64,000 bases of DNA from Photobacterium leiognathi (GTDB lineage: Bacteria; Pseudomonadota; Gammaproteobacteria; Enterobacterales; Vibrionaceae). The notes below the pieces were generated by a model. That model ran no database searches. It was given only the letters and a program-made list of their open reading frames with translations, and was not told the DNA's origin. The position numbers and the translations under genes are program-made. This document shows, one piece after another, positions 21,754 to 25,385 of this stretch. Each line of letters begins with the position of its first letter. Position 1 is the first letter of the stretch. The stretch covers positions 1,798,001 through 1,862,000 of the forward strand of contig NZ_CP131601.1 of NCBI RefSeq assembly GCF_030685535.1, read 5' to 3'.

Positions 21754-22155
21754 TATCATAAATATATAAACCACTATCAATAAGCCACACAGTTTTAGTA
21801 TCTTGATTTCATTTAAACAATAAAAAGAATAATCTTATTTAGTTGCAAATACTCAATAATATAAAGATTGAGTTCGATAATAATGGAAATAAATTATCGC
21901 AGGCACGCTATATTTCTTATTTAAAATATATGCTAAACCTATCCCCTTTAATTTATTACAGAGATTTATTCATCATCAAGTTTCGAAAGAGAGTAATAGT
22001 TAGTACCGTGATACATTTTAATTGCAAATGATATATATTCTCATTCAAAGATTTCAATTTTGGAATCTTTCTTTTGTTATTTAAATAACGCGGATAAAGA
22101 AAAAAAGAGTATATTGAAGTCATCAACGAAGTAGATATATTTATCACTAACCGTT

Positions 22156-22179
22156 TGCCATAAATAGACTTTTATGGCA
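22156..22179 (+). other. Perfect 9-bp hairpin directly before the riboswitch
   Basis: TGCCATAAA (22156-22164) pairs exactly with TTTATGGCA (22171-22179) around the loop TAGACT. The last base touches the first stem of the fluoride aptamer, so it may be a folding aid or part of the aptamer's 5' flank. Confidence 0.5.
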
Positions 22180-22236
22180 GGAGATGATGTTCCTCCTTTA
22201 ACCGCCTTTTCAAATAAAAGGATAATGACGTCTAAC
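22179..22236 (+). ncRNA. Fluoride riboswitch (crcB-type)
   Basis: The aptamer elements are all found in order. Stem 1 is AGGAG (22179-22183) with CTCCT (22193-22197). Its loop ATGATGTTC contains GATGTT (22186-22191), which can pair with GACGTC (22227-22232) to make the pseudoknot, including two G-U pairs. The linker TTTAACCG precedes stem 2, CCTTTT (22205-22210) with AAAAGG (22216-22221). Then comes TAATG before the pseudoknot strand, as in the family consensus. The first 27 bases resemble the E. coli crcB aptamer closely. Fluoride riboswitches turn genes on when fluoride enters the cell. The next gene on this strand starts 228 bases downstream; a weak hairpin (22242-22259) lies in between, but no terminator with a T run is visible. 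Confidence 0.82.
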
Positions 22237-22463
22237 AACATTCGGCTTTAAATAGTCGAGGACCGTGTATTTGTTTAAATGGATATTTTACAGTTCGAGT
22301 TAGAATTGTACTAATTTATGCATTCGTCGCGTTGTTATTTCATTTTTGTCCTCTTCTATTTTCTGCTCGATAAAGAATTATCAATTCAACACGGCTAAGC
22401 GTTATAACTCTCCCCTATTTTGAGTTTTATAATTCGCAACGCGGTGTCAAGTGAGGCAGAGCA

Positions 22464-23156
22464 ATGCAATACTCAACTGAAGTACAAAATATGTGTCCTA
22501 TCTCTCGTGGTCCTCGTCACGAGTCTGCACCAATTCCTGTTGAAGGTCGTTGGATCAATCCAAAAGACGTTATTGCAATTTCTGGTGTTAGTCACGGTGT
22601 TGGTGCTTGTGCGCCACAACAAGGTGCTGCAAAACTAACGCTAAATGTTAAAAACGGTATCATCGAAGAAGCACTAATCGAAACTATCGGTTGTTCTGGT
22701 ATGACTCACTCTGCGGCAATGGCTTCAGAGATCATCACTGGTAAAACAATCCTTGAAGCACTAAACACTGACCTAGTGTGTGATGCTATCAACGTTGCAA
22801 TGCGTGAAATCTTCCTTCAATACGTTTACGGTCGTACACAAACTGCATTCTCTCTAGACGGTCTACCAATTGGTGCTGGTCTTGAAGATCTAGGTAAAGG
22901 TCTACGTAGCCAAGTAGGTACACACTACGGTACACGTGAAAAAGGCCCTCGTTACATGGAGATGGCTGAAGGTTACGTTACTAAAATTGCACTAGATGAT
23001 AACGACGAAATCATCGGTTACCGCTTCGTTAACATCGGTAAGATGATGGAATCTATCGGTAAAGGTGTTCCAGCTGCAGACGCGATGGAACAAGCAACTG
23101 GTCAATATGGTCGTTTCGACGAAGCGGTTCGTACTATCGATCCTCGTCACGAATAA
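22464..23156 (+). CDS. NifU/IscU-like iron-sulfur scaffold protein paired with GGGtGRT
   Basis: A 230-residue soluble protein. Residues ~35-125 match the NifU/IscU scaffold fold: GACAPQQGAAKLTL (Cys49), ETIGCSGMTHSAAMASEIITGK (Cys77) and DLVCDAINVAM (Cys106), in the places where IscU has its three cluster cysteines. An extra Cys11 and a ~100-residue C-terminal extension (GTREKGPRYMEM..., RFVNIGKMMESIG) set it apart from IscU. The ribosome site GAGG lies 8-10 bases upstream. The gene is followed after 65 bases by the GGGtGRT gene, a pairing repeated in other bacteria. A fluoride riboswitch precedes it. Whether it carries a cluster is inferred, not shown; it is not the housekeeping IscU, as no isc genes adjoin. 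Confidence 0.8.
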   Translation: MQYSTEVQNMCPISRGPRHESAPIPVEGRWINPKDVIAISGVSHGVGACAPQQGAAKLTLNVKNGIIEEALIETIGCSGMTHSAAMASEIITGKTILEALNTDLVCDAINVAMREIFLQYVYGRTQTAFSLDGLPIGAGLEDLGKGLRSQVGTHYGTREKGPRYMEMAEGYVTKIALDDNDEIIGYRFVNIGKMMESIGKGVPAADAMEQATGQYGRFDEAVRTIDPRHE

Positions 23157-23221
23157 TCAGCCAAGCTGTTATCCATATATCTAATTAAACCTAATTTGCT
23201 AAATTTATTGAGGATTTTATC

Positions 23222-24226
23222 ATGGCTGCATTATTTGAAAGCTTTGATCGTCGTATCAACCAAATCACTCCAGTTCTAGAAAAATACGGTTTCGCATCAC
23301 TAGAAGAAGCACGTCAATACATCGAAGACAATGGTGTTCGTGCTTACGATATCGTGAAAGAAACACAACCTATCGCATTCGAAAACGCATCATGGGCTTA
23401 CGTGCTAGGTGCTGCTATTGCACTTAAAGAAGGCGCAAAAACAGCAGCAGAAGCCGCTGAATTCCTAGGTGAAGGTCTTCAAGCATTCTGTATTCCAGGA
23501 TCAGTTGCTGACCAACGTAAAGTAGGTCTAGGTCACGGTCGTCTAGGTGCTCGTCTACTAAGCAACGAAACACAATGTTTTGCATTCCTTGCAGGTCACG
23601 AATCTTACGCTGCTGCTGAAGGTGCAATCAAAATCGCACTAAACGCAAACAAAGTTCGTACTAACCCACTACGCGTTATTCTTAACGGTTTGGGTAAAGA
23701 TGCGGCTTACCTAATTGCACGTATCAACGGCTTTAACTATGTACAAACTCAGTTCAACTACACAACAGGTGAACTAGACGTGGTTAACGAGCGTCGTTTC
23801 TCACAAGGTACACGTGGCGAAATCAACTGTTACGGTGCTGACGATGTGCGTGAAGGTGTGGCAATTATGCACCGCGAAAACGTAGATATCTCTATTACTG
23901 GTAACTCTACCAACCCTACTCGTTTCCAACACCCAGTTGCTGGTACATACAAAAAAGAACGCCTAGAAGCAGGTCTTGACTACTTCTCAGTAGCTTCAGG
24001 CGGCGGTACTGGTCGTACACTACACCCAGATAACGTAGCTGCAGGTCCAGCTTCTTACGGTCTAACTGATACTATGGGTCGTATGCACTCTGACGCTCAG
24101 TTCGCAGGCTCCTCATCTGTACCGGCTCACGTTGAAATGATGGGTCTTATCGGTATGGGTAACAATCCAATGGTTGGTGCAACAGTAGCTGTTGCAGTAG
24201 CAATTGAGCAAGCGCAAAAAGCGTAA
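23222..24226 (+). CDS. GGGtGRT-family protein of unknown function
   Basis: A 334-residue soluble protein with the name-giving motif VASGGGTGRTLHPDN near residue 260. Other conserved-looking parts are GEGLQAFCIPGSVADQRKVGLGHGRLGARLL, ETQCFAFLAGHESYAAAEGAI, ITGNSTNPTRFQHPVAGTYKKE and MGLIGMGNNPMVGA. Three cysteines are present. The Gly-rich loops suggest nucleotide or phosphate binding, but no enzyme activity is known to me. The gene is certainly expressed well, judging from strong codon bias like that of ribosomal genes. It is second in the riboswitch-led operon and is closed by a terminator at 24262. Its constant partner is the NifU-like gene. Confidence 0.85.
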   Translation: MAALFESFDRRINQITPVLEKYGFASLEEARQYIEDNGVRAYDIVKETQPIAFENASWAYVLGAAIALKEGAKTAAEAAEFLGEGLQAFCIPGSVADQRKVGLGHGRLGARLLSNETQCFAFLAGHESYAAAEGAIKIALNANKVRTNPLRVILNGLGKDAAYLIARINGFNYVQTQFNYTTGELDVVNERRFSQGTRGEINCYGADDVREGVAIMHRENVDISITGNSTNPTRFQHPVAGTYKKERLEAGLDYFSVASGGGTGRTLHPDNVAAGPASYGLTDTMGRMHSDAQFAGSSSVPAHVEMMGLIGMGNNPMVGATVAVAVAIEQAQKA

Positions 24227-24261
24227 GCAGATAATTAAAAGCTTTATCTTCAAATAACGAC

Positions 24262-24300
24262 GAAAGGCGGGGTTTTAATCAACCTCGCCTTTATTTTTAT
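24262..24300 (+). terminator. Terminator after the GGGtGRT gene
   Basis: AAAGGCGGGGTT / AACCTCGCCTTT stem (one G-T pair), loop TTAATC, then a T-rich run. Confidence 0.85.
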
Positions 24301-24479: not shown

Positions 24480-25385
24480 ATGATCCAAGTAGTAGGTCAC
24501 AAAAATCCAGATAGTGATAGCATTTGTTCTGCACTAGTTTGTACAGCTCTTCTTAAGGCTCGCGGTCTTGAAGCAACTGCAATTCGTCAAGGCGAACTAA
24601 ACCGTGAAACTCAGCACATCCTAGAAGTGGCTGGCGTTACAGCACCTGAACTACGTACAAGCGTTGCTGGCGAGAAAGTATGGTTAGTTGACTACTCTGA
24701 TCTAGCTCAAGCACCTGATGATCTAGCAGAAGCTGAAGTTGTAGGTATTGTTGACCACCACCGTCTAGGTGACGTGATGACAATCAACCCACTAGAAGCT
24801 TGGATCTGGCCTGTAGGTTGTACTTGTACTGTACTATTCAACATGTTCAAGATCGAAGGTCACGAAATTACTCGTGAACTAGCGCTTCTTATGATGTCTG
24901 CAATCCTATCTGACACTGTTGGTTTCGCATCACCAACATGTACTCAAAAAGATAAAGACGCAGTGGCTGAGCTTGCTCAAATCGCTGACGTTCAAGATCT
25001 AGACGCATTCATCAAAGCACTACTAATCGCTAAGACTGACATCGAAGGTCTTTCTGCAGCTGAGCTAGTTGAAAAAGATCTTAAAGGCTACCCTTTCAAC
25101 AACCGTGATGTTGTTGTTGGTCAAATCGAACTTGCTACACTTGAGCAAGTAGAAGACATGATCGAAGCACTAGAAGCTGATCTACAGCGTCGTTGTGACG
25201 AAGAGAAACTAGCAATGGCTGCGCTAATGCTAACTGACATCACAACAAGCACTACTCGCCTACTTTACAAAGGTGAGTGGAACAACATCCTAGATACGCA
25301 CGCAAAAGACGGCGTTCTAATGATGGAAAATACGCTAAGCCGTAAGAAACAAGGCTGGCCTTGGCTACAAACTGTACTAGCTTAA
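24480..25385 (+). CDS. ppaC: Manganese-dependent inorganic pyrophosphatase (family II)
   Basis: Splits pyrophosphate to phosphate in the cytoplasm. The 301-residue protein has all DHH-superfamily signatures: VGHKNPDSDSI (metal ligands), GIVDHHRLGD (the DHH motif), SAILSDTVGF, and the C-terminal substrate motif SRKKQ near residue 291. No CBS or DRTGG regulatory insert is present. This class uses Mn and is distinct from the usual family I Ppa. It follows the fluoride riboswitch-led pair by 253 bases but has its own promoter region with a perfect inverted repeat. Pyrophosphatases are classic fluoride targets, and family II genes are among those found with fluoride riboswitches, so the shared neighbourhood fits a fluoride response. 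Confidence 0.95.
   Translation: MIQVVGHKNPDSDSICSALVCTALLKARGLEATAIRQGELNRETQHILEVAGVTAPELRTSVAGEKVWLVDYSDLAQAPDDLAEAEVVGIVDHHRLGDVMTINPLEAWIWPVGCTCTVLFNMFKIEGHEITRELALLMMSAILSDTVGFASPTCTQKDKDAVAELAQIADVQDLDAFIKALLIAKTDIEGLSAAELVEKDLKGYPFNNRDVVVGQIELATLEQVEDMIEALEADLQRRCDEEKLAMAALMLTDITTSTTRLLYKGEWNNILDTHAKDGVLMMENTLSRKKQGWPWLQTVLA

Follow-up and report, generated by a model that had tools for sequence, protein, structure and literature searches.

A conserved fluoride riboswitch aptamer in front of a NifU-like/GGGtGRT gene pair in Photobacterium leiognathi

Introduction

The fluoride riboswitch, or crcB motif (Rfam RF01734), has been described in front of genes for fluoride exporters of the CrcB and CLC-F types, and the riboswitch-associated genes named in the excerpts consulted of two papers are exporters, Na+/H+ antiporters, pyrophosphatase, enolase, formate hydrogen lyase, and mutS (PMC11139923, PMC2864571). 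Here we analyze an element of this class in a 64,000-nt stretch of the Photobacterium leiognathi genome (assembly GCF_030685535.1, contig NZ_CP131601.1, positions 1,798,001 to 1,862,000 of the forward strand; the whole stretch is called the window), where the aptamer precedes two genes encoding a NifU-like protein and a protein of the GGGtGRT family. It differs from exporter-linked fluoride riboswitches in its target, which is this gene pair and not an exporter; a non-exporter target is shared by the fluoride riboswitches before metabolic genes mentioned in the excerpt of PMC11139923. Neither NifU-like nor GGGtGRT genes are named among riboswitch targets in the consulted portions of PMC11139923, PMC2864571, and PMC7266159. 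No report of a fluoride riboswitch together with this pair was found in the literature; the gene lists of Baker et al. (2012) lay outside the search and may hold an earlier listing.

No assigned function for the GGGtGRT family (PF14057) was found in the literature searched, and going by their titles, some gut and rumen proteome papers include GGGtGRT proteins. Two published data sets, of which single tables were used, tie the pair to iron: expression of GGGtGRT was 7.1-fold (early) and 2.2-fold (late) higher with iron in Clostridium pasteurianum (Table 2 of PMC5395762), and the NifU-like and GGGtGRT genes of Bacteroides thetaiotaomicron were 11- to 12.8-fold lower without iron (Table 6 of PMC10434189). 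Our overall reading, to which we assign a probability of about 0.7, is that a fluoride riboswitch turns on the NifU-like and GGGtGRT unit when fluoride rises. If so, the conserved switch offers a physiological handle on the GGGtGRT family, namely a condition in which the pair is in demand in some bacteria.

Results and Discussion

The Window Carries an Ordinary Fluoride Aptamer

The original prediction, made by reading the letters of the window, had placed a fluoride riboswitch at 22179-22236. The Rfam fluoride model matches 22171..22241 on the forward strand over its entire length (model positions 1-64 of 64) with 48.1 bits, well above the gathering score of 34 (E 3e-10), and the predicted coordinates fall within this match. 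RF01734 is the sole Rfam match at or above the gathering score in the whole window, and a genome-wide search with this family gave no second match elsewhere in the 4.75-Mb genome. Within the fluoride riboswitch class the window RNA is ordinary: it is the same aptamer as in the RNAs with exporter targets, matched over the full model and above the curated cut-off.

To compare structures, 43 of the 67 leaders linked to the pair in the window's family (see below) were read, 42 of them distinct; 26 were aligned as Photobacterium-type and 15 as Vibrio-type, one (L029) belongs to neither alignment, and 27 leaders entered the anti-aptamer and folding tests. In all 26 Photobacterium-type leaders the P1 hairpin (22180-22183/22193-22196, forward strand) consists of standard pairs (100% of cells), and because it is invariant in this set it shows no covariation. 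The inner P3 hairpin (22205-22207/22219-22221) is likewise paired in 100% of cells, and the pseudoknot (22186-22190/22228-22232) in 96.9%. In the window pseudoknot, a G-C of the Rfam consensus and of the Vibrio-type leaders is replaced on both sides to give A-U, with pairing retained. The earlier statement that both stems and the pseudoknot can be drawn thus holds for P1, the inner P3, and the pseudoknot, but not for the outermost P3 pair, G22204/A22222, which is a non-standard G-A in 26/26 Photobacterium-type leaders. In both leader alignments, pairing is kept rather than lost in relatives with the same operon.

The aptamer lies in the 5' leader, on the same strand as the gene behind it. This gene (22464..23156, forward strand, 230 amino acids) encodes the NifU-like scaffold (NifU_N, PF01592, 26.6 bits with a cut-off of 22) and is followed by the GGGtGRT gene (23222..24226, forward strand, 334 amino acids), whose product is a full-length, ordinary member of PF14057 (633.9 bits with a cut-off of 27, profile positions 1-327 of 327). 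The closest named proteins come from Photobacterium, for example a P. angustum GGGtGRT protein with 97% identity. A Pfam scan found no CRCB or Voltage_CLC domain in either gene, in agreement with the prediction that the genes behind the aptamer are a NifU-like/GGGtGRT pair and not CrcB/Fluc or EriC exporters; the CrcB gene of this genome sits elsewhere, away from its only RF01734 match.

The Aptamer and the Pair Are Linked Throughout the Family

We searched a sample of 150 genomes of the window's family (Vibrionaceae) for PF14057, RF01734, and CrcB. GGGtGRT is present in 68 of them (two short second pieces, in genomes G013 and G057, were excluded before this count) and absent from the other 82. 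In 67 of the 68 genomes with the pair, a same-strand aptamer of 35.4-62.3 bits is located 812-1026 bases (median 933) 5' of the GGGtGRT match, so that the position seen in the window is retained in relatives and the same leader stands before the pair in other members of the family. The sole exception is genome G011, where a lax scan of the 4-kb locus likewise found no aptamer. A fluoride aptamer before the NifU-like/GGGtGRT pair is therefore a real and conserved feature, and given 67/68 sampled genomes its placement before the same pair exceeds chance.

The RF01734 search, run with stricter filters that may lose weak matches, found 107 aptamers in the family sample, 102 of them above the cut-off. 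The remaining 40 (35 above the cut-off) are located away from the pair. In all 14 such loci that were read, the next gene, 53-93 bases downstream, is CLC-type (13 loci, by resemblance) or CrcB (one locus), and Pfam confirmed one CLC and the CrcB among them. Accepted fluoride exporters of this family are thus also served by this class of RNA. The away-from-pair aptamers and CrcB are also nearly exclusive of each other: 34 of the 35 genomes with such an aptamer above the cut-off have no CrcB, as against 4 of the other 115.

CrcB is found in 55 of the 68 genomes with the pair, none of which has an above-cut-off aptamer elsewhere and one of which (G011) has no aptamer at all; 12 of the 13 pair genomes without CrcB have a separate aptamer above the cut-off. 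The pair therefore accompanies either type of exporter, and it does not seem to replace export. In the 55 genomes with CrcB, riboswitch control is spent on the pair and not on the exporter. A fluoride switch in this position suggests an uncharacterised, non-export response to fluoride. As far as sequence comparison can tell, it is very likely that the pair is under fluoride control, fluoride being the presumed ligand of an aptamer of this class.

Separately from the linkage counts, the locus of G011 (L028), the sole sampled family genome with the pair and no aptamer, contains a sub-threshold match to V_AS5, a Vibrio antisense RNA, just 3' of the GGGtGRT gene (L028 2587-2711, 46.8 bits with a cut-off of 96).

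A Proposed Translational ON Switch in the Long Leader

The aptamer is separated from the start codon by 222 bases in the window and by 98-232 bases across the 43 leaders. According to the part of PMC2864571 consulted, the motif of many crcB RNAs overlaps with a predicted terminator; the window, by contrast, has a long leader, and a terminator scan of this leader found no terminator-like site between aptamer and start codon. A transcriptional terminator as expression platform was thus rejected for the window. The ribosome-binding region GTGAGGCAGAG is at 22451..22461 (forward strand) before the NifU-like start codon, and the aligned leaders have similar sequences there.

P1 and the pseudoknot are retained in both leader types. 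Pairing over the whole structure reaches 96.9% of cells in the 15 Vibrio-type and 95.1% in the 26 Photobacterium-type leaders, far above slid controls, and in both types the covariation score of the whole structure is higher than in all 500 shuffles. In Vibrio-type leaders a long helix 3' of the aptamer is paired in 94.4% of cells, and four of its pairs show changes on both sides; a further helix that overlaps it covers the ribosome-binding site (100% of cells paired, with one-sided variation only). The equivalent long helix of the Photobacterium-type leaders is paired in 90.2% of cells, one pair being UA in 10, GC in 8, and AU in 7 of 26 leaders. The platform sequences have turned over while pairing was kept.

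From these helices we propose the following switch. With fluoride and Mg2+ bound, the 3' strand of the aptamer would be held in the aptamer, a long-range helix would form downstream between a 5' arm at 22250..22263 (22250-22255 and 22258-22263) and a 3' arm at 22348..22361, and the ribosome-binding site would be free. In the fluoride-free state the aptamer 3' strand at 22233..22239 would pair with the anti-aptamer strand GTTGTTA at 22331..22337 (all on the forward strand), in competition with the first state, and the ribosome-binding site would more often be paired. In 20 of 27 leaders the competing anti-aptamer helix beats 194 or more of 200 shuffles. For the ribosome site, this shuffle test had a second half that excluded the 22 bases nearest the start codon, which made a close-by hairpin invisible to it, and for that half we relied on the other tests. 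When the 3' strand was blocked in a folding test, access to the ribosome-binding region went up in 22 of 27 leaders, by at least 0.12 in seven of them.

Several results weigh against this proposal. Blocking the whole aptamer raised access in no more than 18 of the 27 leaders. In the window, the anti-aptamer helix has only seven pairs, with 59 of 200 shuffles as good, and access to the ribosome-binding site hardly moves (0.40 when free, 0.42 with the tail blocked, and 0.39 with the whole aptamer blocked). For the Photobacterium-type leaders, 300 of 500 shuffles score as high in pairs with two-sided change and 500 of 500 in further pair types; for the Vibrio-type leaders, 56 of 500 shuffles are as high in further pair types. 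The fluoride-free helices of the Vibrio-type leaders beat the shuffles on no measure, in an alignment whose anti-aptamer strand appears out of register in four of the 15 rows, so that the count comes out lower. Related sequences can, moreover, exceed shuffles without any structure. Taking both sides together, a translational ON switch is likely for the leader class as modeled here, and plausible for the copy in the window; control in vivo would then run toward more protein with more fluoride.

The weak behavior of the window copy could also mean that its aptamer is real and that in this lineage it no longer switches or senses fluoride poorly. The short anti-aptamer helix, the flat folding test, and the G-A closing pair in P3 would all fit such a decay, which we nevertheless regard as improbable: the aptamer still scores 48.1 bits, P1 is invariant and the pseudoknot is kept in 26 leaders with a two-sided change relative to the Vibrio type, and G011 alone in the family sample carries the pair with no aptamer.

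The Fluoride Link Is Lineage-Specific

Outside the family the linkage is found in some groups and missing in others. An order-level sample of 394 genomes contains GGGtGRT in 57, 38 of them outside the window's family. Ten of these 38 have an above-cut-off aptamer, in every case 787-895 bases 5' of GGGtGRT; by family code the linked genomes are 6/6 in f2, 2/2 in f6, 1/2 in f12 (the other copy being a remnant), and 1/1 in f13. One GGGtGRT protein from f3 is identical to a Succinivibrio protein. In a phylum-level sample of 398 genomes GGGtGRT is above the cut-off in 10, and one genome of another class, G661, has a 55.9-bit aptamer 840 bases 5' of GGGtGRT and a second aptamer directly before a CrcB gene, so that this genome, like the window's family, also has the same RNA class before an exporter gene. 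Whereas the gammaproteobacterial leaders are long, the G661 switch folds into a compact hairpin.

We then took the best 80 pair loci from a scan with one genome per species; 79 of them lie outside Photobacterium and belong, by their titles, mostly to anaerobes from gut, rumen, and sediment, in several phyla. In 79 of the best 80 loci the NifU-like gene is 5' of GGGtGRT on the same strand, usually within 50 bases of it; by open reading frame (ORF) calls the gap extends to 461 bases, with a few partial matches or overlapping ORF starts. At the remaining locus, L114, the contig begins 54 bases before GGGtGRT. Neighbor-ORF clustering in the same 80 loci for a conserved third gene returned mostly shadow ORFs and no common partner, and this candidate was dropped.

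The absence of the switch from many of these genomes counts against a general tie between fluoride and the pair. No aptamer was found in the pair genomes of families f3 (0/20), f10 (0/6), and f21 (0/1), and none at or above the cut-off in the 79 loci outside Photobacterium, nine of which have less than about 1,050 bases of upstream sequence. Whole-genome searches of G661 and of 23 genomes reached through the best 80 loci (24 in total) found an above-cut-off aptamer in eight, beside the pair in G661 only; a Bacteroidota sample has the pair in 3 of 326 genomes, one of which carries an above-cut-off aptamer about 85 kb away. Since the pair is widespread without the switch, the fluoride link is a secondary, lineage-specific recruitment of an older pair and not its defining trait. 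In this respect the original prediction of a candidate fluoride-tolerance or metal-repair module needs correction; as a whole it is supported in part.

How often this recruitment took place was addressed with a maximum-likelihood tree of 69 GGGtGRT proteins (30 linked to an aptamer and 39 unlinked), thinned from 149 sequences: the duplicates L162 and L164 were dropped, L164 coming from the same genome as L200 (linked), L204 was left out of the tree set, and 30 of 41 linked and 39 of 106 unlinked sequences were kept. The switch could have been placed before the pair once and carried along by shared descent with no functional tie, and the tree has features of this kind: the linked label clusters on it, none of 500 shuffles being as low, and most linked sequences group together. 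On the same tree, however, the linked label needs four changes, all four forced by well supported branches, and a single clade of all linked rows is rejected (p-AU, from the approximately unbiased test, 6.7e-5; 0.005 without G661, row L184), though losses may explain part of this. Row L184 falls inside a clade of anaerobes, and pulling it out is rejected only narrowly (p-AU 0.04, for a group named after the tree was seen); its placement is unsure because of its long branch. With platform sequences that turned over while their pairing was kept, descent with no functional tie appears quite improbable, slightly more so than a decayed window copy. There were probably two or more recruitments of the fluoride switch to the pair, with losses in f10/f21 and G011; transfer of the leader between lineages is a possible alternative.

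The Two Proteins and Their Possible Role

The NifU-like protein shares the NifU_N domain with the IscU/NifU/SufU scaffolds, and sequence and fold comparisons both place its closest solved relatives among NifU-like, IscU, ISCU, and SufU scaffolds, the top structural neighbors being ISCU/IscU/SufU chains (E 0.0026 at best). Three cysteines, C49, C77, and C106, are invariant in 44/44 proteins; we take them to correspond to the cluster ligands of IscU. The protein differs from the known scaffolds in its scores, which lie far under all listed NCBIfam equivalog cut-offs (34.3/187.9, 26/192.4, 20.3/92.5, and 18.8/273.3 bits), so it is not IscU, NifU, or SufU proper, in about 120 extra residues after the matched domain, and in the regular neighborhood of its type with GGGtGRT in the best 80 loci. 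GGGtGRT itself is strongly conserved, with 78% mean column identity over 52 sequences from several phyla and invariant C119 and C203. No credible relative in the PDB was found by sequence, and Pfam and NCBIfam scans gave nothing credible beyond PF14057. A relation to threonine synthase and pyridoxal-phosphate-dependent enzymes had been considered owing to one sub-threshold PF14057 match (19.9 bits, cut-off 27) in genome G582, to a protein that on reading resembles threonine synthase; this was rejected at an hhalign probability of 0.2% against six PALP proteins.

The three invariant NifU-like cysteines and the iron-dependent expression in two published data sets lend indirect support to an iron link of the pair. 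The two proteins probably act together: the NifU-like protein would carry or deliver an iron-sulfur (Fe-S) cluster, with GGGtGRT, which is Rossmann-like and forms a family of its own, as its client or partner enzyme. Two points weaken the second half of this picture, namely that the fold search with GGGtGRT gave no match with E < 0.001 and a generic Rossmann-like core only, and that an Fe-S cluster in GGGtGRT itself is suggested solely by its conserved cysteines. In anaerobes the pair would have a standing, iron-dependent role, and in the fluoride-linked lineages it may be called up when fluoride disturbs metal-dependent metabolism. We infer that the pair is produced under fluoride stress as an enzyme or assembly unit linked to Fe-S chemistry. 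On present sequence data we lean toward a role of the pair in fluoride tolerance, and Fe-S repair or bypass as its specific role is a reasonable guess. Put in full, and tentatively, the pair may be a so far unrecognized, non-export arm of bacterial fluoride tolerance, in which an Fe-S scaffold and a dedicated partner enzyme bypass or repair fluoride-blocked metabolism; it would be shared with anaerobes and have come under fluoride riboswitches at least twice. Such a protective role would add iron-sulfur chemistry to export, pH, and glycolysis as parts of the fluoride response, and independent hints of a fluoride-iron-sulfur link come from anaerobic Escherichia coli, where sodium fluoride raises sufABCDSE and iron-uptake transcripts (PMC10100675, excerpt).

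The pair might instead be a target of fluoride and not a defense, that is, a fluoride-sensitive metabolic enzyme of which the switch makes more, as described for enolase. The excerpt of PMC11139923 lists enolase and pyrophosphatase among the genes associated with the riboswitch, and elsewhere the pair is without a fluoride switch and iron-dependent in two species. In 3 of the best 80 loci (L063, L072, and L137; L072 is confirmed by Pfam) the 3 kb around the pair include an enolase-like gene, a count that has no background rate beside it; enolase is a classic fluoride-inhibited enzyme. Against this stands that GGGtGRT is not a core enzyme in the family, given the 82 genomes that do without it, and that it has no catalytic assignment. 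We consider compensation of this kind possible and somewhat less probable than the tentative non-export arm.

Neighboring Features of the Locus

An intrinsic-terminator-like site at 24263..24292 (forward strand; a 12-pair stem followed by a T-rich tail) closes the two-gene unit. Past it, and outside the unit, a manganese-dependent inorganic pyrophosphatase is encoded at 24480..25385 (forward strand; NF003877, 401.3 bits with a cut-off of 283). Pyrophosphatase is a known type of fluoride-response gene, and here it follows the pair in 22 of 26 Photobacterium-type loci, which raises the question of whether the switch serves the pyrophosphatase by read-through with the pair merely in between. The terminator-like site would break such read-through; the pyrophosphatase was not found at L002, L016, L023, and L027, nor at L028-L031, the other loci with downstream sequence; and in the 43 leaders read the NifU-like gene comes directly after the aptamer. 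This makes a passenger role of the pair very improbable, and the NifU-like/GGGtGRT unit stays the favored target of the switch.

Upstream, a candidate -10 box TATATT was read by eye at 22110..22115 (forward strand), about 55 bases 5' of the aptamer, and a GTATA(G/T)T string recurs, also by eye, upstream in many Photobacterium-type leaders. A consensus scan puts a promoter-like site at 22114-22141 instead, and such sites are no commoner than in shuffles. Imperfect inverted repeats with AATCTTT/GCAATCT-like arms occur at about 22040-22075 of the window and by eye seem to recur 5' of the aptamer at several Photobacterium-type loci; they are a possible operator. A pattern scan for an FNR-type site 5' of the aptamer returned a single doubtful match (L013) in 25 upstream regions, and this candidate was dropped.

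The GGGtGRT gene is interrupted or reduced in a few genomes. It is in pieces in G013, with the aptamer kept, and a remnant in G388, where no aptamer was found. In G057, where the aptamer is also kept, it is split (L239, G057:C2:1363000-1373000), with about 7 kb between the pieces, and the insert contains Mu-like prophage genes (a Mu-like protease, a tape measure protein, and a sub-threshold Mor match). The 3' end of the gene also looks like a phage attachment site. Among viral contigs (L217-L238), 21 of 27 GGGtGRT matches cover only the last 17-64 residues, some at contig ends; one contig has such matches close to each of its two ends (L217, L225). All seven loci read (L218, L220-L224, and L231) have a gene for a tyrosine-type phage integrase at a distance of about 100-380 bases from the GGGtGRT fragment.

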